36,488 bases of DNA, taken from Candidatus Zhuqueibacterota bacterium (GTDB taxonomy: Bacteria > Zhuqueibacterota > Zhuqueibacteria > Residuimicrobiales > Residuimicrobiaceae). This document shows positions 9,834-28,115 of the stretch, piece after piece. Location: the NCBI GenBank assembly GCA_963169875.1, contig CAUJEL010000062.1, positions 1-36,488 of the forward strand, given 5' to 3'. The translations under genes and the position numbers were made by a program. Every line of letters begins with the position of its first letter. Within the stretch, counting starts at the first letter, position 1. The notes beneath the pieces are model-generated. The model saw only the letters and a program-made list of their open reading frames with translations, was not told where the DNA came from and made no database searches.

Positions 9834-9882
9834 CCCATCCTCTTGATCCGCTCGGTGTTAAGGTCATGACACAAATTCACGG

Positions 9883-11700
9883 CTAATAACCGTTCAACTG
9901 GTTAATGACATTTTGAATAGCTGGCAGCAAATTATCCAATGCCTCACGAGCCTCACGACTGGTCACCTTCTGCCGGTCTCTTTCCACAGAATCTTTCATG
10001 AATTCAAACGTCGAAATCAGGCCTTTGAGTTGCTCCCGGGTTGTGATTTTGACATTTCCCGAATTCAGGGCATCCATCATGGTCTTGAAGGTATTATAAT
10101 GAGAATTGACTGTCTCGACGTCGTGGGACTGGGCGATTTGTTCGCGAATGTTGTCTACTTCGCCCAAATTCCGCTGTATGGCCTCGTTCAGCTGATCCAG
10201 AGGTTGCTTGATATCCTCCTGGGTGATGTCTGGCAGCACATCCTGCAGGTCGCCATTGAGCCGCACCAGCCGGCTGGCCAAAGAGTCGAGATGTTGGGCA
10301 CTTTTGATGCCACCCTGGGCCTCATTCATGATTTCCTGAAATTCACCGATGAGACGGTTGCCGATTTGAATTTCTTCATTTCTGCGCCGGAGTGCCTGGC
10401 GTAACGCATCCAGCACTTGCAGGAGTTGGCCAATGGCGTTGAGCAATCTCGGGGCTTCTTCGTTGCTTTCGTCCAGCGCACCCAGTTTTGCATACACCTG
10501 CGCTTGCCGGACCAGATCATACGTCTGATCGATATTTTTTTGCCCGCTGGTGAGCAAATGTTCCGAGAAGCGGTAGATGAGGCTGCCGAGCATAAAATTA
10601 ATCAGAGGATAACGGGGCGTATAAGCCCGTCCTTGCAGCAGCATGGCGATGGAAGCATCGGGCCGCCCGGACTCGAGCCACTGCATGGCGAGATCGATCT
10701 CTTCCTTGACGATCAGCTGGAACAGACTCTGCACAGCATCCTCATCTCCCAGGAGCGGCGGAAGTTCATCGTGTTTTTTCGAAATGAATCCAAGCAGACC
10801 CGGATCCAGCACTTTTAAATATTCATCAAAAACAGCTACCATCTCATTATTTCTAAAGCGCTCCATCACGGGTTTAAGGGCGTTGCGTGCCTGGCGGTAA
10901 TGTCCTTTCTTGAAAGCGGCCACGGCCGGCTGCAATTTTTCGCCCATGACCGCCTGTTGAATCTGAAAACGAAAACCGGAGAGCAGGTCGGTCATGCCTG
11001 TGGCATCCATGCGCAGGCCATCGTCCAGCACCAGCAGGGCATCATCTCCTCTGCCGCGCCGCATCAACCCGCCCGAAAGGAGAAAATAGTAAAGCCCCAT
11101 CTCCGGATCCAGGCTGATGAGACGCTCCATATAATCAATCAACATGCCGTTCTGTCCCCCCTGTTCATCGGCGACGCTGATGAGCAGAACATGTAGAAAC
11201 AGCCCATTGCGGATCGTGGTGCGCAGGTTTTCTATCAGAGCCGGCAGTTGATGGGAGAGATTGACTGCCCGCAGAGGGAAAATGATCTCCAAAGCTTGAT
11301 AAAATTCGCCCAGACCGGCCAGGCAGTGGCCTTTGAGGTAAACCGCTTCATGGACATTCGCATCGATGACCAGGATTTCGTCCAGGGGATCGATGGCCTC
11401 TGAAAATTTCTTGTCATTGATAAGCGCCTTGGCCTGTGCCAAGAGTTCTTCGACGCGATTGAGTTGAACAAGGCCCTCAAAGCTTTCGCCAAAATCAATT
11501 TCACTGATTTTTAAATCAACGCTGCTCTCCGCACCCTGTTGCTGGGCATTGTTGAGCATTTCCTGCAATTTCTTCTGATAATCAAATTCCTCTTTGGGAA
11601 CATCTATCGGGATATCTTCCACCTCGATGGGTATGTCTTTATGAAAATCGGAATCATTGATCAGAGTTGGACCGTTATCCCTGCTGAAATTGACAGCCAT
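9883..11700 (-). CDS. TPR and coiled-coil cytoplasmic protein
   Basis: 605 residues, with AGAGGA about 8 nt before the ATG; 11 bp downstream of the 78-residue gene. The first ~55 residues are acidic and low in hydrophobics (PIEVEDIPIDVPKEEFDY). Residues ~80-290 contain TPR-like helix pairs (ALINDKKFSEAIDPLDEIL, YLKGHCLAGLGEFYQALEII). Residues ~420-600 are long amphipathic helices likely to form coiled coils. No membrane segment. No enzymatic motif. Its place between the chaperone genes and the TIR gene suggests an adaptor or scaffold role, which is inference only. Confidence 0.78.
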   Translation of the reverse strand: MAVNFSRDNGPTLINDSDFHKDIPIEVEDIPIDVPKEEFDYQKKLQEMLNNAQQQGAESSVDLKISEIDFGESFEGLVQLNRVEELLAQAKALINDKKFSEAIDPLDEILVIDANVHEAVYLKGHCLAGLGEFYQALEIIFPLRAVNLSHQLPALIENLRTTIRNGLFLHVLLISVADEQGGQNGMLIDYMERLISLDPEMGLYYFLLSGGLMRRGRGDDALLVLDDGLRMDATGMTDLLSGFRFQIQQAVMGEKLQPAVAAFKKGHYRQARNALKPVMERFRNNEMVAVFDEYLKVLDPGLLGFISKKHDELPPLLGDEDAVQSLFQLIVKEEIDLAMQWLESGRPDASIAMLLQGRAYTPRYPLINFMLGSLIYRFSEHLLTSGQKNIDQTYDLVRQAQVYAKLGALDESNEEAPRLLNAIGQLLQVLDALRQALRRRNEEIQIGNRLIGEFQEIMNEAQGGIKSAQHLDSLASRLVRLNGDLQDVLPDITQEDIKQPLDQLNEAIQRNLGEVDNIREQIAQSHDVETVNSHYNTFKTMMDALNSGNVKITTREQLKGLISTFEFMKDSVERDRQKVTSREAREALDNLLPAIQNVINQLNGY

Positions 11701-11711
11701 GGTCTTTTCCT

Positions 11712-11948
11712 CTATTCATTTTCCAGGTTAATTTCATCCGGTTTGGGCACATCCAGTAAAAGATGTTCGGCCAGAGATTGCACCAGGGCAAATTCGTGCT
11801 CCGGCGTTATGTCGGTGATGGCCAAAAGTGCACCCGACATGTTGATTTTATTCAGATAAGAGCTTTCAACCCTGGTGTCCTTTTTGTAGGTGACCGGTGT
11901 CAGCTTTTCCAGCAAGGCCTTTTTATGAATCGATATGGGTTGCGGCAT
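11712..11948 (-). CDS. Small unknown protein (78 aa)
   Basis: The chosen ATG at 11948 has GAGG about 8 nt upstream and lies 28 bp after the stop of the membrane TPR gene. An upstream in-frame ATG at 12008 would overlap that gene. It is followed after 11 bp by the TPR/coiled-coil gene. The sequence is soluble, with a basic N-terminal part, one hydrophobic core (SGALLAITDI), a helical HEFALVQSLAEHLLLD and an acidic tail. I do not recognise the family. Tight packing in the operon supports it as a real gene. Confidence 0.6.
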   Translation of the reverse strand: MPQPISIHKKALLEKLTPVTYKKDTRVESSYLNKINMSGALLAITDITPEHEFALVQSLAEHLLLDVPKPDEINLENE

Positions 11949-11976
11949 AGAGAGCCCTCTTTCGGGAATAGTAGGG

Positions 11977-13854
11977 TTAACCTTCTTGAACGGCTTCAGA
12001 CGCAGCACTTTCTCCGGTTTTCTCCTCTTCCATGAACAAAAACTCGCCCGTACGCACCATTAATTTTTGTTCGGTCACTTCAAGGTTCCTGGTTTCGGAC
12101 TCGAGGTTGGCGGTTGATTTCTCCAGGCTGGCCAGCAGTTCCTGGATGCTTTTGACGTCTTCAGCCGATGCTGAACTCACTTTGGGTTTGACGATATTAT
12201 CGATGCGCTTCTGCAGCAGCTGCCCCCGCGTCTGCAGATCTTTGATCGAAGGCGCGATTTCCTCTTCACGGCGCTCTCCCTTCAGCCCCTCTTCGAAATC
12301 CTTGAATCGGGCATATTTGCGCAGTCTCTTCTTCAACTCTTCCTGCAACGCTTCCGGGACCGTCTCATCGGTGAGGTATTTTTTGACCAGATTGAGAAAG
12401 AGTTCCAACGCCTTGGCTTCCTGCTCCATGAGTTTATTTTCACGATCCACCAGACTCAGGACTTCGGGGACATTAATGCCCTGGTCGATAGCCTCCTGCA
12501 ATTTTGCCACTGCTTCCTTGCGCAGCTTTCTATAACTGAAAAAATACATGACCAGCCCCATGAGAAGATGAGGGTCAGGCATCTGCGCATCTTCGTCGAT
12601 CACCTTCTGCAGGCGAGCCTGGAGCGCTTCTTGTTTTTCATCCGCCAGGCCTGATTTTTCCTGCGCCGCAAAAAGCCTATAAATCATGGAAATGGCATGC
12701 CAGAGCAGGAGATTCCGCAACAGCGGATCATGTGGCTCCAACTCTCCCTCTTTTTCTGTCTCTTCCGGTTCGCTGGAGGCCGTGGATTCGATCTCTTCAA
12801 TCAGCCCGGCCAATTCATCGTCAATTTCCGGAAAATCGCTCTCTTTCCAATCGCAGAGCAGCATGCCGATGCGACCGTGCAGATCTGTTTTGCCTTCATT
12901 TTTAGCGGTGGTGATGGCGCCGCTGAAATGACGCCGCGCTTCATCCATATTCTTGTCAAATAGATCCATGATCCCCAGTACGACTTGATGATTATCGATG
13001 TGCTTGGGGATGTATTCATGCAGTACGTCCAGATTCTGCAGCTGGTTGAAATAATAGACCGCCATCTCAATCTCGCTCTGATCCCAGCGCTTCTTGCCCA
13101 GTTCGAGGCAGGCGATTCCCATGATCATTTTGGCATCGAGCAGGTCATCCCATTTCGAACCGTACTGGTTGTATATTTTTTCAATGTTCTCGTAATTCTC
13201 CAACTGCAGCTGAATCCACATGTCGAGATAAGCCGATTCACTGTCGAGTTCACCGAGGTTGCGCAGTTCCGTGATTGCGGCGTCAGCCTCCGGAAATTTC
13301 CCGAGCCGGGCGCGAACATAGGCCTGCAAAAAGCGGGCGACCGCGATGTCTGATTTTTTCAGACCCGCTGTCAATGCCTGGGTCAGCTTTTCATCCGCCA
13401 ATGGAAACTCGCTCTCCGTGTCCGCTTCGACGATCTTCACAGCTTCGAGCAGAGGCTTGCGCTTTTTGGCAGGCTGCAGCAGGAACAAGTAGGCCAGAAG
13501 TGCGGCAATAATGAACACACAAATCCCAATGACCACAAATAACATCGTCTGATCGCTTTTCGCCGTGGTCATTGGCTGTGAAGGAGCTTCTTCGCGGGCG
13601 TCACCGCCCCGGGGCGGCAGTACCTGGGTCTGGTCGTGGCGTGGCAAGTCCGTGCGTGGAATCGTTTTTTTGCAGTACGGACAAACAATGCTGTCTGCTG
13701 TCGCCGTGGTATTCCCGGCGGACGAAAAAGTGCGTTCGGCGGTTTGCGCGCAGGTGAGGTCCGGCATCATCAACGGCAGAAGCCCCAGAAACAAGGTCAA
13801 TAAGCCCAGAGCAGGGATCACTTTTCCAATGATGCCAACCTTACAGATTTTCAT
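11977..13854 (-). CDS. Membrane-anchored TPR protein with periplasmic CPYC motif
   Basis: 625 residues from ATG 13854, which has a strong AGGAGGG just upstream; an ATG at 13869 would place that site inside the gene. Residues ~8-36 are a hydrophobic signal sequence ending near CAQT. Residues ~58-73 hold C58-x2-C61 and a nearby His73, a zinc-ribbon or redox-like fragment. Residues ~104-127 are a clear transmembrane helix followed by basic KKRK. The remaining ~490 residues are helical and TPR-like (AYVRARLGKFPEADAAITELR, ACLELGKKRWDQSEIEMAVYYF). Predicted topology: short periplasmic part, one helix, large cytoplasmic TPR domain. It could tether the otherwise soluble complex to the inner membrane; that is inference. 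Confidence 0.8.
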   Translation of the reverse strand: MKICKVGIIGKVIPALGLLTLFLGLLPLMMPDLTCAQTAERTFSSAGNTTATADSIVCPYCKKTIPRTDLPRHDQTQVLPPRGGDAREEAPSQPMTTAKSDQTMLFVVIGICVFIIAALLAYLFLLQPAKKRKPLLEAVKIVEADTESEFPLADEKLTQALTAGLKKSDIAVARFLQAYVRARLGKFPEADAAITELRNLGELDSESAYLDMWIQLQLENYENIEKIYNQYGSKWDDLLDAKMIMGIACLELGKKRWDQSEIEMAVYYFNQLQNLDVLHEYIPKHIDNHQVVLGIMDLFDKNMDEARRHFSGAITTAKNEGKTDLHGRIGMLLCDWKESDFPEIDDELAGLIEEIESTASSEPEETEKEGELEPHDPLLRNLLLWHAISMIYRLFAAQEKSGLADEKQEALQARLQKVIDEDAQMPDPHLLMGLVMYFFSYRKLRKEAVAKLQEAIDQGINVPEVLSLVDRENKLMEQEAKALELFLNLVKKYLTDETVPEALQEELKKRLRKYARFKDFEEGLKGERREEEIAPSIKDLQTRGQLLQKRIDNIVKPKVSSASAEDVKSIQELLASLEKSTANLESETRNLEVTEQKLMVRTGEFLFMEEEKTGESAASEAVQEG

Positions 13855-13880
13855 GCACCCTCCTATCACTAAAAATCCAC

Positions 13881-15383
13881 TTATTTCACTGTGAGCAAAA
13901 ACGTTTCCAGGTCTGAAAGCCGCGAGCCATGGGCGTGTATTTCGTCAATCGGGACCGACTGGTTCTCTCTGACAAGACGGAGCTTTTCTTTCATCAAGGC
14001 AATCATCTGCGCTGCATTTTCCCGTTCCTTGAGGCAGATCAAGGCTTCGATATAATCCAGAACGAGGGGGAATTTCCACCAGATGAATTTGTCCCCCTGC
14101 ATGATCCGCGGATAGATGAAATGGGCGGCATCGAGGTTTTTGCCCCTGGCCATATAATACCTGGCCAGGTCTCTCTCCAGTTCCAGTTGCCGGTTGACAG
14201 TCAGGGCGAGAAAATCCCTCTGAATACGATTATCGAGCTGTCCGAGCAGCTGTTCCTTATGCAGTCCCACACTCGATGCGATGACATCGAACTGGGCATC
14301 GTAAGCATCGGGAATTCCGCGCTGTTCATTGATGGCGTTCTCAAGCAGATCGATGGCCTCCAAAGGACGCTGCAGATCTTCCCACGCCATTTTTCCACCC
14401 AGCAGCAACAACTCATAAGAAGGCCTGGTGAGCAGAATATCCTGGAGCAATACAAACGCTTCCTCAGCCTTGCCCTGGTCTCGCATCGTGGAAATGATTT
14501 TTTCCGGTGCAAGCTGGATTCGATACTCGTCCAGTTTGTTTGCCACCAGAACGACATCCACGGCGCTGCGCTTTCGCGGATCATGATCAGCCATCTGATG
14601 CAACATGGCGATCATTTGCTGGCATGGAGCGATTTTTTCCAGCCAGAAAGGCAGACGATTTCTCAGCACCGATTCGGATGCAAAGAGCGAGCCACAGGCA
14701 ATCTGGGTCAGAAGCCGGGCGACGGACTCTATCTCCTGCACCGTATAAACGGTTTGCAAACACATCATGCCCATGGCGTATAAATCGAGGTTCTCGCCGA
14801 ATATATTTTTCTGTTGTCCGCAGATATATTCCGGGGCGAGAAAAAGTGCACGATATGGCTGTTCCCAGATTACGTCCAGATCAATGGGACTCAACATGGG
14901 CGTGAAAAGCAAAAAGGGCTGATTCTCCTCAAAGATGATATCCGCCGGCATGAAGAGCAGGCACTTGCCGGGATCGCCATTGAGCAGCTCTTTCCAGATC
15001 AGATAATTTTTCAGGGTGCGATGCGCCGAATCTAGCCGCACCGCCAAATCCGGATTGGCCAATAAATCCTGCCACGTCTGCGTGCCCTGGCTTTCATATT
15101 GAATGTAAAAATAATCCTGCCCGGTGCCCTTGATGAAGGCATGATCCGCGGAAACGATCGGCGCCACGGCCTGTTTGCGCGGCCGGCCGGGATCGGGATA
15201 CTTGCGGACTTCTGTGCGAATATCCAGCGGCACTTTTGCCGTCGGCAAAAGACGAAAATAGGCGGGTTTGTCGACCGATCTGTAGACCATTCCATTGAAG
15301 CTCGGCCCCACGCAGACTATCTTGTGGATCTCGCCATTGCTGAGCTCAAGCTCCAGCGCCTGTGTATTATTTTCGAGCATCAT
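13881..15383 (-). CDS. Degenerate protein kinase (pseudokinase) with C-terminal helical repeats
   Basis: About 500 residues. The end LAPEY...GENLDLYAMGMM (about residues 185-215) is the APE motif and the DxYxxG helix F of Ser/Thr kinases. The preceding region keeps the order of a kinase fold, with a glycine-loop-like GPSFNGMVY near residue 30. However, the HRD loop is replaced by a segment around MPADIIF and the DFG by FTPML, so catalysis is unlikely. From residue ~290 onward TPR-like helices follow (GKAEEAFVLLQDILLTRPSYELLLLG). The start is ambiguous: ATG at 15383 overlaps the Hsp70 stop by 17 nt; ATG 15392 and GTG 15407 are alternatives. Operon position suggests an allosteric or scaffold subunit acting with the Hsp70. 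Confidence 0.72.
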   Translation of the reverse strand: MMLENNTQALELELSNGEIHKIVCVGPSFNGMVYRSVDKPAYFRLLPTAKVPLDIRTEVRKYPDPGRPRKQAVAPIVSADHAFIKGTGQDYFYIQYESQGTQTWQDLLANPDLAVRLDSAHRTLKNYLIWKELLNGDPGKCLLFMPADIIFEENQPFLLFTPMLSPIDLDVIWEQPYRALFLAPEYICGQQKNIFGENLDLYAMGMMCLQTVYTVQEIESVARLLTQIACGSLFASESVLRNRLPFWLEKIAPCQQMIAMLHQMADHDPRKRSAVDVVLVANKLDEYRIQLAPEKIISTMRDQGKAEEAFVLLQDILLTRPSYELLLLGGKMAWEDLQRPLEAIDLLENAINEQRGIPDAYDAQFDVIASSVGLHKEQLLGQLDNRIQRDFLALTVNRQLELERDLARYYMARGKNLDAAHFIYPRIMQGDKFIWWKFPLVLDYIEALICLKERENAAQMIALMKEKLRLVRENQSVPIDEIHAHGSRLSDLETFLLTVK

Positions 15384-17406
15384 GATAGGCATCTTCAAGT
15401 TCGTCACTCAGGTCCTGCAGCTCATCGATACTTTTGTTCTCATTGAATGCCTGAACAAAGGCATTATACGCGCGGGCGAGATCGGCATTCATCTCAACCA
15501 GGAGCTGTTTTTTGGCGCGCCTGACAATCGATTTGAATTCATCTGAAATGTCTCCTGCAGGCTCGAGAAGCTCCACCGCGTCCGCGGTTGGCACGGGCGA
15601 AGGTTGTGGTGCCGGAGGAGGTGGCGGTGTTGCCGGCGTGTAAACATCCGGGGCCGCATATCCCGGTGGCGGTGGAACAGCGCCGGGCATTGGCGGCGGT
15701 GGCGGCACGGCACCAGGGCCATAGCCGGCTGCTGCACTGGCATTGACCTGCGCAGCGGCGGAAAGGTATAGTTGCAGCAGCTTTTGCCGCATCGGAATGA
15801 GTGCGGCATCTCCACCAACGCCGGTTTTGTGTTCGAAAACCGCCTGATAGGAGCGGCTCTCGTTGACATGATTGATGGTCATGGACAGCAAACCATTCAT
15901 GTCCAGCTTGAAGGTCACCTCGAACTTGTGAAAACCCTCAGGCTGTGGCGTCATGGGGCCGATATTGAGCACGCCAATGAGGGTGTTCTCATAGACATAG
16001 GTGCCCTCGCCCTGATAGACCCTGACGGGAATTTCCGCGGCCATGCTGCCGTTGGTGTACCCACCCTGGGTGATCTCGATGGGAATGCCCGTGCCCTGGT
16101 CGACAATTTTCGAAAAGATCTTGTTCTGCACCTCAACGCCCAGCGAGTGTTCGGTGATAAGCTGGATATTGGGTTGATCGACCGCATCCACATTCATCAG
16201 GGTTGATTCCTGCTGCTTGGTGATATCAAATGGCGGCGGCGAAGCGCTGAAACGGTAGGCGATGATGGCCGCGCCACGGGCCACCACTTCATCCGGATTG
16301 AGATCCGAGCGCACAAAATCCTCGTTTTTGCCAAAATGATCGAGGAGCATGCTCTTCACTTTGGGTATTTTGCTCGATCCGCCCACCAGCAGGATGGCGT
16401 TAATATCCTCACGGCGCACCCCTTTCTTGGATGCCCCGTCCAGCGCCACGTCGATGTAAGTGATTGATTTGATCAGGAGTGGATGGATGAGCGCTTCGAA
16501 CTCCGTTTGGGTTATGGTAAGGAGCGGCGCCTGTGCCGGCGCCAGCTCAGCCAGGTTGAGTTGTGTCGAAGCATGGGTGGAGAGATTGATTTTAGCCTGC
16601 TCAGCCAGATTTTTTATCCGCGCCTTGGCGCCCGGATTTTCAGCAAAATTGATTTGAAATTTGCTCTGCAGCTCTGTGACCGCCCACTGCGTCAGCAGGT
16701 CGTCGAAATCACCGCCGCCCAGACGCGGATCACCGGAAGTCGCAATCACCTCAATGTCGGTGCCTTGTACCTGAATGATCGAGACATCAAAGGTGCCGCC
16801 GCCGAGGTCGTAAACCATGTAGACGCGGCGTTCTTCCTCGGCGCGATCTACACCATAGCAAATCGCCGCCGCCGTTGGTTCCGGAATGAGCTGCCGCGGA
16901 TAGAGGCCGGCCAGCAGGGCGGCCTCCTTGGTCGCTTTGCGCTGCCGTTCCGTAAAATAGGCCGGCACCGTGATCACGGCATCGCGGATTTCCTCCCCGA
17001 TATCCGCCTCGGCGATCTCTTTCATCTTCATGAGAATCAGGCCGCTGATCTGCTGCGGCAGCAGCCATTGACCATTTAAAAAGGCTTTGACCGGATCGCC
17101 GGCGTTGAAGATATTTTGCGCATTATACTTCTCCAGGGTCTCCGGACGGAATTCTTCGCCCATCTCACGTTTGATTTCAATGATCGTATTGGCGGGGTCC
17201 GCCGGCAGATTTTGTTTGGCCGCTCTGCCCACCATGGCTTTGCGCGTCGCCGGATCCAGGCTCACAACCGAAGGTGTGGTGGCAGCATCCGCGGTGAAAT
17301 GATCCACGATGATTTCCGCCTGCTCCGTATAGGTATTGTAGGCGGAAACAGCGCTGTAGGTAGTGCCAAGATCGATGCCAATGACTCGATGCAGATTAAC
17401 ATTCAT
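15367..17406 (-). CDS. Hsp70 (DnaK-family) chaperone with proline-rich linker
   Basis: 679 residues, with AGGA 8 nt before the ATG. All nucleotide-binding signatures are present: IDLGTT (11-16), VITVPAYFTERQR (144-156), LIPEPTAAA (173-181), YDLGGGTFDV (199-208), GGGDFD (230-235) and ILLVGGSSKIP (338-348). A substrate-binding beta domain follows (~415-525), starting HSLGVEV. The usual hydrophobic interdomain linker is not conserved. Residues ~560-605 are an unusual Pro/Gly-rich stretch, and a short helical lid ends the protein. It should hydrolyse ATP to cycle client binding with the J-like and GrpE-like proteins encoded just upstream. It is a dedicated operon paralogue rather than the housekeeping dnaK, judged by its neighbours; genome-wide comparison would confirm. 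Confidence 0.95.
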   Translation of the reverse strand: MNVNLHRVIGIDLGTTYSAVSAYNTYTEQAEIIVDHFTADAATTPSVVSLDPATRKAMVGRAAKQNLPADPANTIIEIKREMGEEFRPETLEKYNAQNIFNAGDPVKAFLNGQWLLPQQISGLILMKMKEIAEADIGEEIRDAVITVPAYFTERQRKATKEAALLAGLYPRQLIPEPTAAAICYGVDRAEEERRVYMVYDLGGGTFDVSIIQVQGTDIEVIATSGDPRLGGGDFDDLLTQWAVTELQSKFQINFAENPGAKARIKNLAEQAKINLSTHASTQLNLAELAPAQAPLLTITQTEFEALIHPLLIKSITYIDVALDGASKKGVRREDINAILLVGGSSKIPKVKSMLLDHFGKNEDFVRSDLNPDEVVARGAAIIAYRFSASPPPFDITKQQESTLMNVDAVDQPNIQLITEHSLGVEVQNKIFSKIVDQGTGIPIEITQGGYTNGSMAAEIPVRVYQGEGTYVYENTLIGVLNIGPMTPQPEGFHKFEVTFKLDMNGLLSMTINHVNESRSYQAVFEHKTGVGGDAALIPMRQKLLQLYLSAAAQVNASAAAGYGPGAVPPPPPMPGAVPPPPGYAAPDVYTPATPPPPPAPQPSPVPTADAVELLEPAGDISDEFKSIVRRAKKQLLVEMNADLARAYNAFVQAFNENKSIDELQDLSDELEDAYHDARK

Positions 17407-17415
17407 ATTATTATC

Positions 17416-18159
17416 CTATTCTGATTGGGTGTTCGCCTTGTCTGAATTTCCAATGATGACGCCGCACGGCCGAAATATCTGCTCGCCGAACTTGTATCCT
17501 CTGCGGAGGGTTTTAATGACTAAATTGGCCGGCCCTTCCTCCTGGCCCAGGCACTCCATGATCTGAGGATCAAAAGCGGCGCCCGCGGCAGATTCATATT
17601 CCTGGATGCCCAGCGTTTGCGTGATGGTGATCAAGCTGCTTATAACCGCGTCCAGCATCATAAAAGCCGGATGTGACGCACCTCCCGGCAATTCAGTGCG
17701 CAAGATCAGGAGAGAATCCAGGTTTGGCAAAATCGCATTAAACGTGGAGCGAGCGGCCAGCGCCTTGCGTTCACTCAATAAATCCTTGCGCAGCTTGTCC
17801 ATTTCATAGGCGTGCTGATGCAATTGGTCCTGATTAATCCGGGACATTTCTTGCATCTGCTGAATCACCGCCGTTTGATTGATCTCAAGGGTTTTTACTT
17901 TTTGCAGCAGTATCAGCAAATCCTCAGCCAGTTCCTCGAGCAATTCGTCCGTTTTGCCGTTTTTTAATCCTGATTCCAAAGAAGCTGATTTCAGATTGGC
18001 GAGGTCCAGATGCAGTGGCTTCTCAGGCATTGGGCCAATGGATGAAAGTTTTTCCAGACTCTCTTCGTGGGCGTTTGCGGAATCGGACAGCTTCGTCTCC
18101 TCTTGGGATTCGGGCTCATCCTCAGGCGGGCTATTTGACACGCCGGGTTGTTCGGCCAT
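17416..18159 (-). CDS. GrpE-like nucleotide exchange factor
   Basis: 247 residues from ATG 18159, with GGAG 9 nt upstream; ATGs at 18168 and 18174 are possible. It overlaps the J-like gene by 29 nt and ends 9 bp before the Hsp70. The N-terminal ~80 residues are acidic and disordered, then a long coiled coil (~85-140), then the GrpE head: FNAILPNLDSLLILR, AAFDPQIMECL and the C-terminal LRRGYKFGEQIFRPCGVII, which matches the family signature (GY..G...LRPA.V.V) with Cys in place of Ala. Longer than typical GrpE (~190-200 aa) because of the N-terminal tail. It should release ADP from the adjacent Hsp70. Confidence 0.88.
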   Translation of the reverse strand: MAEQPGVSNSPPEDEPESQEETKLSDSANAHEESLEKLSSIGPMPEKPLHLDLANLKSASLESGLKNGKTDELLEELAEDLLILLQKVKTLEINQTAVIQQMQEMSRINQDQLHQHAYEMDKLRKDLLSERKALAARSTFNAILPNLDSLLILRTELPGGASHPAFMMLDAVISSLITITQTLGIQEYESAAGAAFDPQIMECLGQEEGPANLVIKTLRRGYKFGEQIFRPCGVIIGNSDKANTQSE

Positions 18160-18805
18160 GTTGACCATCTCCATCTAAAAGTTGATTGGCGCTAAAGTCA
18201 TCCATAAAATCAGAACGGGTGAAATCGGTCGGATGATAGCAAACCTCACCCCGTTTTTCCAGAAACGCGATGATCTCCTGACGCAGACAGTACAGCAACA
18301 GCTTGCGGCCTCGCTCTGTGAAAATTTCTTCATCACACGATTCCAGTTTGATTTGCGCCAGGGGGGCAATCGCCTTGTCATAGTTCAATCGCTCGTTCGG
18401 GTTCTCCAGAATGATGCGATTAATCTCGAAAATATTCTTCTCCAGTTCGGCCAACTGCACCAGCAGAGAGCGGTATTGTGGATTCAGGGCCATGGCTTTC
18501 GCCTCCAATTGGCCCAAACGTGTTTGTGCATCGGCCAGTTCACCCGCATTCACATCGCTGCCCTTGCATTTGAGAGCGTGAAGGCGCTCCTCGGCAGCCC
18601 GGAGCCCATCTACCTGATTGTATATACCGGCCAATTGTTTGTGGATGAGGTTTTGCTGCTTTTTGATGCGATTGACCTGTTCCGCTTTCGCTTCGCGGAT
18701 TTCCAGACTCGTCGCTTCGGGGGAGAGACCCAACTTGTCATATTGGGTGTTTTCTCGAAGTGGAAGGGGGTAACGAAAAATCCGATTCAACGTTTTGGTA
18801 AACAT
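18131..18805 (-). CDS. J-domain-like protein with coiled-coil insertion and no HPD
   Basis: 224 residues from ATG 18805, preceded by GGGGAG; a GTG at 18817 is an alternative. Residues 19-48 resemble helices I-II of a J-domain (QYDKLGLSPEATSLEIREA, compare the family pattern YxxLGLxxxAsxxEIkkAy). Residues ~125-146 resemble helices III-IV (IFEINRIILENPNERLNYD, compare L.dP..R..YD). Between them, where HPD should be, lie about 75 residues of coiled-coil sequence with no HPD. HPD is what normally stimulates Hsp70 ATPase, so this would be a J-like protein with altered function. Location immediately upstream of GrpE and Hsp70 supports the reading. First gene of its transcription unit. Confidence 0.7.
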   Translation of the reverse strand: MFTKTLNRIFRYPLPLRENTQYDKLGLSPEATSLEIREAKAEQVNRIKKQQNLIHKQLAGIYNQVDGLRAAEERLHALKCKGSDVNAGELADAQTRLGQLEAKAMALNPQYRSLLVQLAELEKNIFEINRIILENPNERLNYDKAIAPLAQIKLESCDEEIFTERGRKLLLYCLRQEIIAFLEKRGEVCYHPTDFTRSDFMDDFSANQLLDGDGQHGRTTRRVK

Positions 18806-19089
18806 GGCGCTCCCCACCTACGTTAAACGGCAAAAGACTTGTTTGCATAACTATGTTAAGCTGAATTAAGCACCGCCAAGAGCGCGGTGATACGCAAAGA
18901 AAATATGAACATTAAAACAGGATCAACAGCAACTTTTGAGAAGGGGATGAATTCTAATCAAACTTGTTCGATCATCCCGACAAAAACAACTCGGCGGGCT
19001 CTGCGCGCTCGGCGGTTTAAGACTTGATCGGGTTAAAACGTTTCAATTGTTTTATCCAGGCAGGCATCTTTTCGAAAATAAACAATCAA
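18806..19089. promoter_or_regulatory. Gap upstream of the J-like/GrpE/Hsp70 genes; promoter expected
   Basis: No gene is visible here. A promoter for the J-like gene should lie here on the minus strand. I found no sigma-54 GG-N10-GC pattern. The best sigma-70-like candidate on the minus strand is TTGATC and TATTTT spaced 15 bp (about 18915-18940), which is weak. Two features stand out: a small hairpin CACCGC/GCGGTG at 18871-18889, and a direct repeat CTCGGCGG at 18990-18997 and 19008-19015 (18-bp period). Either could be regulatory; neither is proven. Confidence 0.3.
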
Positions 19090-19124
19090 CTGCAAATACG
19101 CAACTATTTTCTTATCATTTGCAG
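19090..19124 (-). terminator. Hairpin after the AAA+ gene
   Basis: CTGCAAAT (19090-19097) and ATTTGCAG (19117-19124) form a perfect 8-bp stem with a 19-nt loop, 28 bp past the stop of the AAA+ gene. On the minus strand it is followed by a T-rich stretch (TTGATTGTTTATTTTC). It probably ends the Hsp90-like/AAA+ transcript and separates it from the J-like/GrpE/Hsp70 transcript. Confidence 0.5.
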
Positions 19125-19151
19125 GTGTATTTTATGAGCACTGCCAGCCCA

Positions 19152-21052: not shown

Positions 21053-22942
21053 CTAGGCTGCCCGATGCCGTTTACTGATCTCGTTGATCAAGGCCCGGCG
21101 CATGCTGGCGGCCAGTTTTTCTTTCACCAGATGATAGAATGGAGAATAAGGCACCAGCATGCGCTGCGATAACGCCAGTTCATGGGAGACGTAGGTCAAG
21201 GAATAATAAGCACGTTGGGCGTTATCGCACCCGGACAGGTATTGTATAAAGGGATGATCCAGGGAGAGCCCCAGAAGCAAATCCCTCGATTCGGCAACGG
21301 CCTGCGGCCTTTCATCGCTGGACAGATTGGTTATAATCCGGTCTGTCAGGGGAATGCCCTCGCTGTCAAAAATACCCGCCGAAATATAGGCATTGCCATC
21401 CTCGATATGAATGAAAACCGGGCGAATGCTGCGAATGGAGAGGTTCAGGTTCTCCTCAATCGCCTTGTGGACGCCGGCGTCCTGAAGCACCGCGGCCACT
21501 TCGTCCAGGAAAGCCCCCTGCTCTTCATTGAGGTGCCGTTCACCCACGATTTTGCAGGTTGGCGACAAAGCTTCTGCAGCGACGACGCCCGCCTCGACCA
21601 GCTCCTTGAGCCGCTCATGGTTGCTGTTGATGGCATCCAGGTTGACCACCTCTTTGTACAACGTTGCGAAGAGTCGGTCATAAAACTCAGGAGCGCCTCC
21701 CCCCCTTTCGCATCGATCCGGCAGAACAATGAAATCGTGTTTGAAATTGCCTCCCAGCCAGCGTAAATTTCGCTGCGTCGGAGAATAGAATAAAGGCAGA
21801 CCGGGTGAGAGCCGCTCTTTGAGATCGCGCAGAGAAGACATGCCGCGCTCCCCGCTGATCCTGTAAACCCTGGCCTGCAGCAGTTTTTCCAGCACGGGTT
21901 CGGCCACAGCGGAGTCGCCACCGTGCAAGAGCGGTTCGAGTTTATCGCGCAGGATGTACTGATTGGCCAATATCAGGGCGGGATCGGATTTTGTATCGAT
22001 CATGCCATTCAGATAATCCATCAGCACCTCCGCCAATTCCGCCTTGGCCCGGTCCCAGACCCAGTTGAGATAAAAAGAGTCCCGGCTGATGGTCACATTG
22101 AGCTGGTTGCAGTTCAGGCAGATGTGTATATTGGGAACCCAGGGCAGACGGCTGAGATAAAGGTCGTCGAGATTATAACGCATGTTATGGCCGCCGGTGG
22201 AGAGGGCATCCAGCGACAGGTTGAGGATCAATTCATATTTGCACAATACGCTGACGTTGTCCCAATACCGCTCCGGTTCGATGAAACCCTCGATATAGCT
22301 CTTCTTGAACATGAAGGCGCCGTTTTTTTCGGCATTTTCCCAAACCGACACAAACGGCTTGCCGTTCACCTTGATCCGGCAGGGATAGTATTTGAGTGCC
22401 TTTGCAGCCGCTTGCAGGCAGCTGTCCACCGCATCGCTTCCCGCGAATTTGACCAGAATTCGGGTGCTGTAAGGAACAGCCGTTTTTTGGGTTTCAGCCT
22501 CGAGGCGCGGTGGCGCATCGGGATCCTCCACGATGAATCGCAGGAGGACCACTTCGCCTTCACAGCGTGTGGTGATCTCCACGGATTGTGTATGCAATTT
22601 CGGGTTGAACATGCTGAAAAATCCAACCCCGAATGTGCCGATCTTGGCGGGATCGTCCGCCTTGTCGGTTCCGCCCAGGGTGGTGATCAATTGCAGTTTT
22701 TCGCGGTTCAATCCACTGCCATAGTCGGTGATGCTGATGGAATCGCGCGTTGTTTCAATCTCGCCCTTGCGCCTGGGCCAGGGCACACCGGTTTCATAGC
22801 TGTCGATCAGGTTCTGGATCAACTCGCTGAATGCGCGGCCGGGATTGCCGCCGAACTGGCTGGAGATTATTTTTCTCCAGCCTTCGTTGACGTCGACTTG
22901 CAGACCGTTTTTCAACACCATGGTATCAATAACAGAGTTCAT
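21053..22942 (-). CDS. Hsp90-like GHKL ATPase (first type)
   Basis: 629 residues. Three consecutive ATGs (22948, 22945, 22942) follow GGGAGG; the third has the best spacing. Numbering from it, the Bergerat fold is complete: N-box FSELIQNLIDS (Glu40, Asn44, Asp47), D73-x-G-x-G in ITDYGSGL, and the lid GTFGVGFFS (~102-110), nearly identical to Hsp90 GQFGVGFYS. After an S5-fold-like middle, NVTISRDSF (~282-290) matches the Hsp90 middle-domain motif whose Arg contacts the ATP gamma-phosphate. The last ~300 residues are unfamiliar. It therefore belongs with Hsp90-like/MutL-type ATPases rather than histidine kinases. 15 bp after the other Hsp90-like gene and 161 bp before the AAA+ gene. Likely an ATP-driven conformational switch. 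Confidence 0.85.
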   Translation of the reverse strand: MNSVIDTMVLKNGLQVDVNEGWRKIISSQFGGNPGRAFSELIQNLIDSYETGVPWPRRKGEIETTRDSISITDYGSGLNREKLQLITTLGGTDKADDPAKIGTFGVGFFSMFNPKLHTQSVEITTRCEGEVVLLRFIVEDPDAPPRLEAETQKTAVPYSTRILVKFAGSDAVDSCLQAAAKALKYYPCRIKVNGKPFVSVWENAEKNGAFMFKKSYIEGFIEPERYWDNVSVLCKYELILNLSLDALSTGGHNMRYNLDDLYLSRLPWVPNIHICLNCNQLNVTISRDSFYLNWVWDRAKAELAEVLMDYLNGMIDTKSDPALILANQYILRDKLEPLLHGGDSAVAEPVLEKLLQARVYRISGERGMSSLRDLKERLSPGLPLFYSPTQRNLRWLGGNFKHDFIVLPDRCERGGGAPEFYDRLFATLYKEVVNLDAINSNHERLKELVEAGVVAAEALSPTCKIVGERHLNEEQGAFLDEVAAVLQDAGVHKAIEENLNLSIRSIRPVFIHIEDGNAYISAGIFDSEGIPLTDRIITNLSSDERPQAVAESRDLLLGLSLDHPFIQYLSGCDNAQRAYYSLTYVSHELALSQRMLVPYSPFYHLVKEKLAASMRRALINEISKRHRAA

Positions 22943-22957
22943 CATCATGCCTCCCGG

Positions 22958-24835
22958 TTAATTTGAAAGCGAACGCCAATCATTCGCAGAACGGATGAAT
23001 TCCCAGGCCGCGCGGTCTTTTCCGCCGTCGTCAGAGGCGCGCTGATTCGGCCGGGGGCGCAAACTCCCCTCTGTGAGTTTGGCCATGGCATCGATCAGCA
23101 ACAGGTCTTCCCTGGTTTCCCGCGTGATGTGCGGTAAAAGGGTGCTGTTTTCGCTGATGCACATGGCCACGGCCCAATGTCCTGCCAGGGCTGGCATATG
23201 CCGTGACAACTCAACCAGTTGTTTAATGTCAGGATGATAGAGGTTGAGGATGACATCATTTCCCTTGACCATGAAACGATGGCGCATGCAGGGCGTTTTT
23301 CCGTCGCGTTCCACCAGATGATGCACACGCCAGCGAATATCCTGGATGTCCTGGGAGGCATTCTCCATCTCCTTGCGAACATGGGTCAATCGTTCCATGT
23401 CCTCTTGCGAAAAGGATCCTCTATTTTCGGCGAGCACGTCTGAATCAGTTTCGGCCAGGACGTGTGGATGAAAGCCCAAATGATCGGCGAATTTTTTCTC
23501 CGCATCCGAAAGATCCGGACTCAGATCTGCGGGTGCTTCGATGACCACATCCTGCAGTTGCAGATTGATCAACTCTTTTTTGAAGAGCTGATTGATGACT
23601 TCCAACCCGTTGGGCATCTGTTCACCGCTCAGTACCGGGCCGTCAAAGAGGGTATAATCAGCGCCCGGCTCATCGGCGCGGGCCAGATAAAGCTTCCCGT
23701 GTTGATTCACTTTTTCGCGCAGTTCATTCAGGGAGAGCCGGCCTCCCTGTGCCAGACGGAACAGCGGCATCTCAGTCCAAATATCGCCCGCCATCGCCTG
23801 ATAATAATTCAATGCCATGGCCAATTCCTCGATTTCGTACACCGCGGAACGGGAATCCGCCCGCATGTAATAGGCAGCCAGCGTGCGAAAATATTCGGGC
23901 AGGATCCGCTGGCGTATGGTAGCGGCGAGAGGCGGCAATATTTCCTCATTGCGCAGGCAATGACGGCCAAAGGGCAGCTCAAAATCACGGCAATCCACAC
24001 GGATGTGAAGATGTGGCAATTGCCACTGGGATTCCTGTCCGCTGGAGACAAGATTATAGCGGTTGGTCACGAAAACCCGATTTTGGTATATCTCATGATT
24101 GCTTTCATCGAGACTGAGCACCATGTCAAAAGTGGAATCCCCCAGCTGGATATGATAGCTCTTGCCGAAGGTCTCGGTGAAGGGTTCCCAATCCGAGCGA
24201 AATGTCTCCCATTGTCCGGGAATGCTTTTGGAGGCATCCTCGGGAACGTATACCTGCACGTTCAGGGGCAGATAGCGGACATAGGTTTTGAGGACTTGCA
24301 GCAAATGCAGCATTTCCTCCCGCAGCGGCACACTTTTTTTAAACTCGATGCAAAATTCGCTGCCAGGTTCAGGCACTTTTGCCAGGCGCTCCAGTTCGAT
24401 GGGCTTCTCTTCCAACAAGGAACCCGTGGTGGCGCGCCAGGCCTCTTTTCCGTCGCAGGTCATGACTGCAAAGCCGCATTGACCAGGGATGGCTGCCACA
24501 GAGAGCTTGCCGATGCCATGCTTGCCGACCATTTTGGTCGCATCGCCGATCTTCACCGAGCGATACATGGTGAAAAAATCGACCAGGCGCTGACGATTCA
24601 TGCCATGCCCGTTATCACGAATGTAAATACGCAGGGTTTGGGATCCCTCGTTGCCAAAAATCGAGCAGAACGTGGCGCCCGCGTCATAGGCATTGACCAC
24701 ATATTCACGGATCCATTCGCGTGGATCCGCAAATTGCGAACACATATCATGCTTCAGGCGTTGAACGTCAGCCTGGATGCCCTGCCTGGCCAAATCCTGC
24801 AAGGCTTTTGCCAAATCAGTTGATTTCTTTTTCAT
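22958..24835 (-). CDS. Hsp90-like GHKL ATPase (second type)
   Basis: 625 residues, with AGGAGG 5 nt before the ATG; first gene after the sigma-54 promoter. GHKL motifs: N-box WIREYVVNAYDAGA (Glu44, Asn48, Asp51), IRDNGHGM (Asp74), and the lid GKHGIGKLS (104-112). The second domain ends in FELPFGRHCLRNEE (~285-298), with an Arg in the position expected for the ATP-contacting arginine of Hsp90/MutL proteins. A helical C-terminal half of unknown type follows. It is clearly divergent from its neighbour (lid GKHGIGK against GTFGVGF), so this is not a recent duplication. The pair may act as a heterodimer. No signal peptide. Confidence 0.85.
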   Translation of the reverse strand: MKKKSTDLAKALQDLARQGIQADVQRLKHDMCSQFADPREWIREYVVNAYDAGATFCSIFGNEGSQTLRIYIRDNGHGMNRQRLVDFFTMYRSVKIGDATKMVGKHGIGKLSVAAIPGQCGFAVMTCDGKEAWRATTGSLLEEKPIELERLAKVPEPGSEFCIEFKKSVPLREEMLHLLQVLKTYVRYLPLNVQVYVPEDASKSIPGQWETFRSDWEPFTETFGKSYHIQLGDSTFDMVLSLDESNHEIYQNRVFVTNRYNLVSSGQESQWQLPHLHIRVDCRDFELPFGRHCLRNEEILPPLAATIRQRILPEYFRTLAAYYMRADSRSAVYEIEELAMALNYYQAMAGDIWTEMPLFRLAQGGRLSLNELREKVNQHGKLYLARADEPGADYTLFDGPVLSGEQMPNGLEVINQLFKKELINLQLQDVVIEAPADLSPDLSDAEKKFADHLGFHPHVLAETDSDVLAENRGSFSQEDMERLTHVRKEMENASQDIQDIRWRVHHLVERDGKTPCMRHRFMVKGNDVILNLYHPDIKQLVELSRHMPALAGHWAVAMCISENSTLLPHITRETREDLLLIDAMAKLTEGSLRPRPNQRASDDGGKDRAAWEFIRSANDWRSLSN

Positions 24836-24864
24836 GGCGGCCTCCTTTTTCTGTCAGATATAAT

Positions 24865-24880
24865 TGCAAGAGGCATGCCA
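24865..24880 (-). promoter_or_regulatory. Sigma-54 (-24/-12) promoter for the Hsp90-like/AAA+ genes
   Basis: On the minus strand the bases read TGGCATGCCTCTTGCA, a full match to TGGCAYR-N4-TTGCW. The GG and GC are 10 bp apart, as required. Transcription should start near 24854, giving a ~19-nt leader that contains the AGGAGG of the gene at 24835. The operon encodes its own bEBP-type ATPase. Confidence 0.85.
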
Positions 24881-24930
24881 TGTTTTATATGATATATCTA
24901 ATTGATTTTATTGATCCGTTTACATGCATT

Positions 24931-24970
24931 GGTCAAGCAGGATCAGGAAGAGTCAGGAAGGTTCATGAAG
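24931..24970. promoter_or_regulatory. Four phased 10-bp repeats, candidate enhancer site
   Basis: Four consecutive decamers, GGTCAAGCAG, GATCAGGAAG, AGTCAGGAAG and GTTCATGAAG, share TCA at positions 3-5, G at position 7 and AG at positions 9-10. Each repeat is about one helical turn, so a bound protein would contact one face. They lie ~50-90 bp upstream of the -24 element, the usual range for an upstream activating sequence of a sigma-54 activator. Confidence 0.6.
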
Positions 24971-25035
24971 CGTATGCAGGCGTTCAACGGCCGCATTTCC
25001 GGGCGAGAACGGATGTCATGGTATTCCCTGCAAAT

Positions 25036-25095: not shown

Positions 25096-26583
25096 TCAGT
25101 ACTTGACGATCACTTTTACGCCTGTGGGTGCAGCTGGAGGCAGATCGACCTCGGTGGTGGCCAGGGGCTGCAGCAATACCAGATACATGCTGCTCGATGC
25201 ATCCATGCCATTGCCGCTGAGCGTCACTGTGCCGGGCGGAAAATCCTTTTCATAGAGTTTGAATTCAGAATCCGTTGTCGTGATGCGGTCACTGAGCGGA
25301 ATCCACGTGCTCGTCCATGAGGGTGTTGGCTGCCCGTTGGCATCGACAGCCACGATCACTTTTATCAGCTTTTTTGCATAGAATTCCAGAAAATTGGCAA
25401 AGCTTGCGCCTTTGTCCTCATTGGCGGTGACGATCCAGTAAAAGGTTGAAAAGCGTTCCGGGATTTGCACAAAAGTGAAATTGCGATCAAAGTAGACGGA
25501 ATCACCCGGAGAGCGGCCTGCAACCAGACGATATTTTGGCAGGGAAATGGCAGTCACGGGCACGTCCTCGTAGCGATAGCTCATGCTGTCCACCGTAGTG
25601 ACGGCACTGGGTATGCCGGTATCTCCAATCGAATAGACCTTCAGTTTATAGCTGGTACCCTCGCGATGAGGGGCTGTGGTCAGGTAGATCTTGTTGGGAT
25701 TGTCCGAATGTTCCGCCTTGGTAATGGCTGTGGCGGGGATGATTTCGTAATGGTCCAGTTGTATGGCGGAAATGCTTTCAACAGGCTCATTGAAGAGCAC
25801 CTGGACCCTATCCTGGGCGAGCGCAGCGACAGAGGCCAGTTTCGGCCCGACCGGAATCTGGTTGTTTTCGCCAGTACTGAGAATGCGTAAATCAGAAAAA
25901 ATCGGACCTGGTTGGGCTGTGTAACCCCACATCAAATTATCTTTGCCGAGAAAGACATACTGAAATTTGTCCACCTGGCCTGCAAAGGGCAGCTGCATTT
26001 GCAGTACACCGTCGACCATGAAATATAATTTCGTACCGCTCCAGATGAATTTAAACTCATAGGTCTGGCGTGGATCCCAGACCGCTTCATGCATGACGCG
26101 TTCCTCCTCCTTGCTGCCGACGCCCTTGGAGGCCGCCCACAGCTTAAAGCCCGCTTCATTCGGCCGCCCGGACACATAATTGGTGCCGCTGATGAGATGA
26201 AACCAGGCGCCGTTGGTTTCATAAATATCTTTATTGCCGCAGCGGCATGAATAGAGATCGATGATGGGTTGTTTGGTGGAAATGTTCTGATTAAATGGGT
26301 CAAAATTGGTGACCTTGACGGAGAGGGTGCCTTCGAACGGCAATCCTTTGGGCAGTGCAATAAACAGCTGGCTGGTTGCCTGTGTGGATTGCCAGCCTTG
26401 CGCGGTGAACATGCCGTCCGTATTTTCGATGATCAGACCCTGGTTGCTTTGCAGGCCGGTCAGCGGATGAGAATAAAGAAGCTTTTGATGAACTGGCTGT
26501 GCAGAGGCGGTCAAGCACAACAGGGACATGAGCGCCAGGCTGCTCAGTAGAGTAGTGTTGAAAATCAATCGAGTCGACTTCAT
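25096..26583 (-). CDS. Secreted protein with LamG/concanavalin-like and Ig-like domains
   Basis: 495 residues from ATG 26583, with GAGGG about 7 nt upstream; a longer start at 26628 would put basic residues and this site before the signal peptide. Residues 1-28 are a signal peptide ending TASAQ. Residues ~30-225 form a beta-rich jelly-roll-like region (AWFHLISG, YEFKFIWSGTKLYFMVDGVLQMQLPF), as in LamG-like carbohydrate-binding folds. Residues ~230-320 look like an Ig-like module of the kind seen in bacterial surface proteins (RVQVLFNEPVESISA). The C-terminus ends VKVIVKY without an obvious sorting domain. Ligand unknown. It appears to be an independent transcript with its own promoter at 26710-26718. 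Confidence 0.75.
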   Translation of the reverse strand: MKSTRLIFNTTLLSSLALMSLLCLTASAQPVHQKLLYSHPLTGLQSNQGLIIENTDGMFTAQGWQSTQATSQLFIALPKGLPFEGTLSVKVTNFDPFNQNISTKQPIIDLYSCRCGNKDIYETNGAWFHLISGTNYVSGRPNEAGFKLWAASKGVGSKEEERVMHEAVWDPRQTYEFKFIWSGTKLYFMVDGVLQMQLPFAGQVDKFQYVFLGKDNLMWGYTAQPGPIFSDLRILSTGENNQIPVGPKLASVAALAQDRVQVLFNEPVESISAIQLDHYEIIPATAITKAEHSDNPNKIYLTTAPHREGTSYKLKVYSIGDTGIPSAVTTVDSMSYRYEDVPVTAISLPKYRLVAGRSPGDSVYFDRNFTFVQIPERFSTFYWIVTANEDKGASFANFLEFYAKKLIKVIVAVDANGQPTPSWTSTWIPLSDRITTTDSEFKLYEKDFPPGTVTLSGNGMDASSSMYLVLLQPLATTEVDLPPAAPTGVKVIVKY

Positions 26584-26709
26584 TAATTGTCCCTCACAAG
26601 ACACACAAAGTGAATGATAAAGCCTCATTTTCGAGCTTTTACCTGCTCCAGGTTCATTTTTCCATGCTCAGAAATGAGATGCTTGCAAATATCCTCGTTT
26701 TAAGCAAAA

Positions 26710-26718
26710 ATTATACCA
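26710..26718 (-). promoter_or_regulatory. Extended -10 promoter for the secreted-protein gene
   Basis: The minus strand reads TGGTATAAT, a perfect TGn-TATAAT extended -10. No good -35 is present, as is usual for this class. It would give a leader of about 120 nt for the gene starting at 26583. Confidence 0.5.
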
Positions 26719-26807: not shown

Positions 26808-28115
26808 ATGCGTAGATTGCAGCGGTATTGGCGTTCCACGTTGATCGTGATCGTTTTCTGGACTGCATTTGGCGCTTTTTTGGGCAGCGGCATGCTTTCA
26901 GGTACGCTGTTCCATCGCGTAGCCACAGGCCTTTATTACGCCGGCGCATTGTTTCTTCTGGGTGGACTCGACGCAGGCCTTCCCCATGATGTAAACGCTC
27001 CGTCAACCATCATTCTTTGGGTTTGCTATTTTGTAGCGCCGCTGCTCACCGCCAGCTTTGTCTATGATTTCATACAGGCAAGAATTCTCAACCGCATTCC
27101 CCGCAGATTATCAGGGCACACCATCATCTGCGGCCTGGGCCGCAATGGCCGGTTGATCTATGAACTCGCCAGACAATCGCTCCCCAAAAATCACCCGATC
27201 GTAGTCATCGAGCAGAATGAAAAGAACCCGCACCTGCAGATTCTTGAGAAGGATCCTTCAGCCTGGCGCATCAAGAATGACTTCACGCAGATGCCGGTCC
27301 TGCAATCCGCCCGTGTGGAGCAGGCCAGCCGCATCATTTTCTCCACCAACCAGGATTTGGAAAATCTCAATGCGGTGGTCGCCCTGCAATCCTTTGCCAG
27401 CAAACACAAGAAACCCGCCGTTTTTTGTCATTTGGGCGATCTGGAGATGCTGGATAATTTCAGCCGCACCCTGTTCCGGGAGCCGGCCTATGAGCGGGTG
27501 CATGTCTTCAACGGCTACCAGTGCGCCACGCGGCGTTTGATGCATCGCATAAATAGTGAGAAATTGCTCTCCGATTCCGGCAATGTTTTTATCCTCTTCG
27601 GATACGGCCGATTTGCGCGCATGCTCTTCTCCCACATCGCCCGTGTTACAGAGCGCACCCCGGCCGATGAAATCATCATCGTCACGGAAAAATTGGCTTC
27701 CGGGTATGATCTGACTGCATTACTATCGGACCATTCGGAGACACATCCAGCACTGGGCTGTCATCTGCATCAACCCATTATCGGGGACATGCACAATCCG
27801 GAAATTTGGGAGCAACTCGATTCCTTGCTGGTTAATCCTGAAAAACGGGTCATCGCTTTTGTGTGCCGGGATCACGATATAGCCAACCTGGACCTGGCGA
27901 TTTCCATCAAACTCAGGGGCCCGCAACAGCTGCAGAAAGCCACATTCATCTGCCGGATTTATGCCCATACGGTTAAAGAGATCAATGAAATGCTCGACCA
28001 CCGGTTGACGCCGAACCAGACCCATGATGTCATTTTATTTCCCCTGCAAGCGGAATTAAAAAATGCCTTCGATGAAGAAATTTTTTCAGCAGCATCCGCG
28101 AGCGAAGCAAAATAG
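26808..28115 (+). CDS. Two-TM, double TrkA-N (RCK) NAD-binding protein
   Basis: 435 residues; AGGAG 6 nt before the ATG. A hydrophobic helix at ~10-33 and another at ~66-90 flank LYYAGALFLLGGLDAGLP (~42-59), the place of the K+ channel pore loop. It has a GGLD motif instead of the TxGYG filter, so potassium selectivity is doubtful. The cytoplasmic part has two Rossmann domains: IICGLGRNGRLIYEL (~106-120, GxGxxG) and VFILFGYGRFARM (~260-272). TrkA-N domains bind NAD(H) or other nucleotides and gate channels. It is followed 50 bp later by a SLOG gene, and the pair is probably one operon. Similar RCK-type membrane proteins are found in nucleotide-signalling and conflict loci. Confidence 0.8.
   Translation: MRRLQRYWRSTLIVIVFWTAFGAFLGSGMLSGTLFHRVATGLYYAGALFLLGGLDAGLPHDVNAPSTIILWVCYFVAPLLTASFVYDFIQARILNRIPRRLSGHTIICGLGRNGRLIYELARQSLPKNHPIVVIEQNEKNPHLQILEKDPSAWRIKNDFTQMPVLQSARVEQASRIIFSTNQDLENLNAVVALQSFASKHKKPAVFCHLGDLEMLDNFSRTLFREPAYERVHVFNGYQCATRRLMHRINSEKLLSDSGNVFILFGYGRFARMLFSHIARVTERTPADEIIIVTEKLASGYDLTALLSDHSETHPALGCHLHQPIIGDMHNPEIWEQLDSLLVNPEKRVIAFVCRDHDIANLDLAISIKLRGPQQLQKATFICRIYAHTVKEINEMLDHRLTPNQTHDVILFPLQAELKNAFDEEIFSAASASEAK

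Follow-up and report, generated by a model that had tools for sequence, protein, structure and literature searches.

The minus-strand element at 24865-24880 can be taken, with very little doubt, as a real and conserved sigma-54 promoter. It lies in the 36,488-nucleotide stretch of DNA analysed here (the window), upstream of a gene set whose conserved transcription unit, judged from synteny, is GHKL1-GHKL2-AAA: two HSP90-like ATPases followed by a bEBP-type AAA protein. The complete model joins the sigma-54 promoter, the conserved three-gene unit and self-activation by the AAA protein, and is considered slightly better than an even proposition. The features are listed in Table 1.

The sigma-54 promoter and its conservation

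A scan of the window found a single 0-mismatch match to TGGCAYRN4TTGCW, the 24865-24880 element, which has the -24 GG and the -12 GC at 10-bp spacing. The first-pass annotation had described a full-consensus element here, suitably spaced from the start codon and with transcription expected to start near 24854, and these claims agree with the present results. Counting by the -12 geometry from the C of the GC (24866) leads to the same predicted start. The resulting leader is 19 nt long and ends at the ATG at 24835, with a ribosome-binding site upstream of it. The genome also encodes rpoN (sigma-54). In the whole 5.0-Mb genome, the consensus has 25 exact matches, whereas the reversed pattern has 3. 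A plausible gene start follows about 20 of the 25 sites.

GHKL1, the first gene, has orthologs in six relatives (G001, G006, G009, G013, G018, and G080), and the full-length ones are 47-52% identical. In five of the six operons, a -24/-12 element is located 27-40 bp before the start codon. These elements were scored with an independent matrix built only from dnaK promoters; the combined Fisher P value for the six orthologs, with the failure in G009 included, is 2e-7. The exception, G009, has no -24/-12 element upstream of its GHKL1 gene (L061, upstream of 272), though both GHKL1 and GHKL2 are kept. Four of the five relatives with the element have GT instead of GC at -12. This change, also seen in the main dnaK promoters of G003 and G005, may make the promoter weaker. 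A chance match would agree with the finding that some of the 25 exact genomic sites have no downstream gene. However, it would leave the conservation, at the correct distance in five relatives, without a cause, and is therefore very improbable.

Table 1. Features of the sigma-54 locus in the window, with the corresponding elements of the relatives.
Feature	Position	Strand	Sequence or remark
Sigma-54 -24/-12 promoter element	24865-24880	minus	TGGCATGCCTCTTGCA; exact consensus; conserved in 5/6 orthologs
Predicted +1	24854	minus	an A; position inferred
Ribosome-binding site	24841-24846	minus	AGGAGG; 5 nt before the ATG
Four phased 10-bp repeats	24931-24970		forward GGTCAAGCAG/GATCAGGAAG/AGTCAGGAAG/GTTCATGAAG; minus CTTCATGAAC CTTCCTGACT CTTCCTGATC CTGCTTGACC
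Enhancer candidate A, two central decamers	24941-24961	minus	-81 from the -24 start, the position of the relatives' element; 7.4 bits against the relatives' motif
Enhancer candidate B	24987-25007	minus	CTCGCCCGGAAATGCGGCCGT; at -127; 10.8 bits, P 0.054; picked by the de novo motif search
GHKL1, HSP90/gyrase-type ATPase (HATPase_c_3), first gene	22958-24835	minus	625 aa; Pfam PF13589, E 2e-10
GHKL2, second HSP90/sacsin-type ATPase	21053-22948	minus	631 aa; weak Pfam matches
AAA, bEBP-type sigma-54 interaction ATPase core, winged helix (predicted) and C-terminal P-loop AAA	19152-20921	minus	GAYTDA loop; PF00158, E 6e-34; PF13401
Gap of about 335 bp, AAA gene to J-like gene	18818-19151	minus	from ORF coordinates
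Chaperone/TIR module: J-like, GrpE, DnaK, kinase-like, membrane, TPR, TIR, TPR	4337-18817	minus	eight genes; an independent syntenic block in G078 and G080
TrkA-N (RCK-type) putative channel gene	26808-28115	plus	Pfam
Ortholog -24/-12 element, G001			TGGCACGCCGCTTGCC
Ortholog -24/-12 element, G013			TGGCACGGGAATTGTC
Ortholog -24/-12 element, G018			CGGCACGGGATTTGTC
Ortholog -24/-12 element, G006			TGGCATTATTTTTGTC
Ortholog -24/-12 element, G080			TGGCACGGGCCTTGTC
Enhancer element of the relatives, four versions			CTTTCCGGAAAATTCCCGAT, CTTGCGCGCAAATGCGCGAT, TCTGCGCGCAAATGCGGTAT, CTTTCGCGAAATTCCGTTCA

Upstream decamers and enhancer candidates

The four decamers share 44 of 60 pairwise identities and rank first in the window among four-copy arrays with a period of 10. 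When the intergenic region was simulated 2000 times with a Markov model, no array as good arose. Among 657 windows of 260 bp from the same genome, one scored as high; it is probably the array itself, because the site's own locus was in the set. The array is absent from the output of Tandem Repeats Finder at a score of 30.

A de novo search of four diverged relatives identified a common 20-bp element, which starts 69-83 bp upstream of the -24 start. No null among 300 reached the score of this motif, and none of the 300 gave positions within 15 bp. The motif reads as two adjoining decamers. Its sequence differs from that of the window decamers, which occupy the place of this conserved element. 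When seven genomes were scanned with up to three mismatches, one exact hit (in G013) and three hits in the present genome (G000) were obtained; none of the latter is beside a sigma-54 element, and at least two fall inside long coding frames. The G013 motif has no other copy within three mismatches, as expected for a local regulator.

The first-pass annotation had placed the decamers at a typical enhancer distance and proposed a comparison of orthologous upstream regions. The array and its position were borne out, and the -24/-12 element is kept as described above, but the decamers as written are not conserved; the relatives carry a related two-decamer element instead. The decamers were also considered as a regulon-wide conserved box, and this was rejected, as they were not found in the relatives.

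The enhancer of this genome is ambiguous between 24987-25007 and 24941-24961. Candidate B is the window's best match to the conserved motif of the relatives. Candidate A agrees with the congener G001 at 15 of 21 bases at zero offset (P about 0.01), compared with only 23 of 100 further upstream. Since the central decamers have the same position as the G001 element and most of its bases, they may represent the conserved enhancer in its local version, as far as sequence comparison can indicate. Alternatively, the decamers might have arisen by neutral tandem duplication and play no part in regulation, with the enhancer at 24987-25007 or another place. The absence of the decamer sequence from the relatives and the better motif match at -127 agree with this explanation, whereas the shared position and the bases kept in the congener speak against it; its probability is put not far short of even.

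The AAA protein and the activation of the promoter

The first-pass annotation stated that the operon encodes a bEBP-like ATPase, and the sequence comparisons support this. Residues 23-195 of the AAA protein form a bEBP core according to Pfam and PDB profiles, and the PDB profile search matched NtrC1 and PspF (E about 1e-34 to 1e-37). The Walker A and B motifs, the switch Asn, and both arginine fingers are conserved; N79, D122, E123, R174, and R180 are invariant. The sigma-54 loop is GAYTDA here, GAFTDA in G001, GSFTQA in G006, and GAFTGA in G013 and G080, so that two of the five orthologs keep GAFTGA and three do not. Activity was obtained in NorR with D, N, Q, S, C, or M at the second glycine of the loop, and Tyr was the only residue tolerated in place of the Phe in PspF (PMC2941729). 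Since D and Q in NorR and the F-to-Y change in PspF are individually functional, the contact loop is probably still functional, its variants being mostly within the published functional single substitutions. Literature searches found no report on the Y and D double change, nor on the A-to-S change of GSFTQA.

The remainder of the AAA protein is distinct. Pfam identified no Fis-type HTH. For residues 316-407 (approximately), the prediction is a winged helix (pLDDT 82) whose best structural match is Fur (Z 9.4 over 83 residues) and which could read the enhancer if the predicted fold is correct. Residues 408-589 form a second P-loop AAA domain according to Pfam and the fold prediction. The full-length model is poor (mean pLDDT 60) and unusable for the first AAA domain. 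Searches for an AAA ortholog found none in G009, whose genome gave only ordinary bEBP matches, or in G018, a 91%-complete draft that keeps the promoter element and whose contig ends inside GHKL2. These absences are weak evidence, because the contigs of both drafts end near the expected place. G009 thus lacks both the promoter element and a detected AAA ortholog. Outside the phylum, a contig scan gave one hit, an ordinary bEBP core with 26% identity. This deltaproteobacterial MAG hit was rejected as a relative, as its neighbours are unlike the module.

In the proposed mechanism, sigma-54 RNA polymerase would be held as a closed complex at the promoter. For the complex to open, a bEBP hexamer on the enhancer region, 51-127 bp upstream, would have to hydrolyse ATP. 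The likeliest activator would be the third product of the operon, the AAA protein, because it has a bEBP core, the catalytic residues, a loop close to the known functional variants, and a predicted winged helix. Leaky expression together with a signal might then switch the operon on fully, and the signal might be relayed by the two GHKL ATPases or by the C-terminal AAA domain. Binding of the AAA protein to the enhancer, with activation of its own promoter, is plausible by inference from these features.

The main rival to self-activation is that the promoter is real and activated in trans by another bEBP, the AAA protein being a former bEBP that works as a remodelling ATPase with the GHKL pair. 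There are about 26 other bEBP-type proteins in the genome, and the paralogs TyrR, DhaR, and HupR have lost the sigma-54 contact (PMC3162934). The departures from GAFTGA, the missing Fis-type HTH, the extra AAA domain, and the promoter element of G018 without a detected AAA ortholog might be explained in the same way. However, the loop changes are mostly published as functional, the catalytic residues are invariant, the enhancer motif is locus-specific in G013, and a DNA-binding fold is predicted in the AAA protein. Activation in trans is thus regarded as a serious possibility of clearly less than even probability.

The organization with self-activation resembles PspF-psp, NorR-norVW, and RtcR-rtcBA, which also have a -24/-12 element, an upstream enhancer region, and a bEBP AAA core at the locus. 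In contrast to these systems, the candidate activator here is encoded third in the unit that it would control, it lacks a Fis-type HTH and has a predicted winged helix and a second AAA domain, and the genes under control encode two GHKL ATPases. NorR (G266D and related variants) and PspF share the residues of the AAA core, and in them the single changes of the second glycine to D or Q and of F to Y are known to work; here the loop changes occur combined, whereas the published ones are individual, and there is no GAF domain.

GHKL2 orthologs were found in the same six relatives as those of GHKL1. The GHKL unit of the relatives lies near RyR(-AAA), RelA/SpoT-SLOG-RyR, NUDIX, and TrkA-N genes (L076:5465-8230, L077:8896-14225, L107:1242-5641); the linked TrkA-N gene of the window has counterparts near the module in G001 and G013. 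The NTP- and nucleotide-dependent conflict systems of the class described by Kaur et al. (2020) have RyR, SLOG, RelA/SpoT-like, NUDIX, and TrkA-N neighbours in common with the relatives, and also chaperone-like ATPases. Their core is MoxR-vWA, whereas the core here is GHKL-GHKL-bEBP, and the defence role is putative. It is proposed, tentatively and as a less than even prospect, that a self-activating sigma-54 switch with a bEBP of new architecture controls an HSP90-like ATPase pair within a nucleotide-signalling (RyR/SLOG/RelA-SpoT) stress or defence network. If true, the remodelling ATPase of a sigma-54 circuit would belong to the regulated protein module, and an on-demand promoter would be tied to a putative conflict system. 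No GHKL1 ortholog was found outside the phylum in a 388-genome sample (E 1e-30). The PADLOC anti-phage families gave no match over most of the protein, only partial matches to the ATPase parts, and no published operon combining sigma-54, an HSP90-like ATPase, and anti-phage function was found in the literature.

Chaperone genes, the chaperone/TIR block and other sigma-54 sites

The first-pass annotation had placed the TIR/chaperone block under sigma-54 control and called this unusual; neither part agrees with the comparative results. The eight genes occur in the same order in G080 and G078, where the stretches read lack a sigma-54-like site as well as homologs of the GHKL and AAA genes of this operon. 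Moreover, the block is not beside the GHKL module in G001, G006, G013, and G080. Based on this synteny, the block is a separate module outside the conserved sigma-54 unit, and the GHKL operon and the block were rejected as one conserved unit. The promoter might nevertheless drive one long operon including the block, since all genes from 24835 to 4337 are on one strand and no minus-strand terminator was predicted in the 335-bp gap. The free-standing block of G078 and G080 and its absence next to the GHKL module elsewhere make the long operon unlikely; the block may or may not receive read-through from the sigma-54 promoter. The J-GrpE-DnaK-kinase-like-membrane-TPR-TIR-TPR block (L138, L139), syntenic in two distant relatives, is itself a candidate chaperone/TIR conflict module.

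Judging from the upstream regions, the main chaperone gene is as a rule under sigma-54 control in this order. The main dnaK gene has a sigma-54 element at all 22 loci examined in 21 genomes (upstream regions L109-L130); 17 of these elements are exact and 5 have one mismatch. In this genome, the main dnaK (G000:C152:66318-68231) and the neighbouring htrA each have an exact element. An enhancer common to these two genes and the promoter studied here was considered, but by eye dnaK and htrA share other elements. As 20 of 22 genomes also encode HrcA, sigma-54 is probably not the sole heat-shock control. Reports on Bacteroidota and Planctomycetota describe chaperone regulons linked to sigma-54 (PMC12316311). 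Those regulons and this order have heat-shock genes with sigma-54 promoters in common, with the difference that here, in another group, the element precedes the main dnaK and does so at all loci examined. The conservation of the dnaK element across the whole order makes the stress-control logic there directly testable.

Other sigma-54 sites were also observed. A one-mismatch sigma-54-like element, TGGTATAATTTTTGCT, is located at 26703-26718 on the minus strand, about 75 bp before the start codon of a secreted-protein gene (25096-26628). Several of the 25 exact sites (L002, L003, L009, L020, L023, and L026) precede similar secreted proteins, which share an 'M.(V/I)T..G..GIG' start and are perhaps a sigma-54-controlled surface-protein family.
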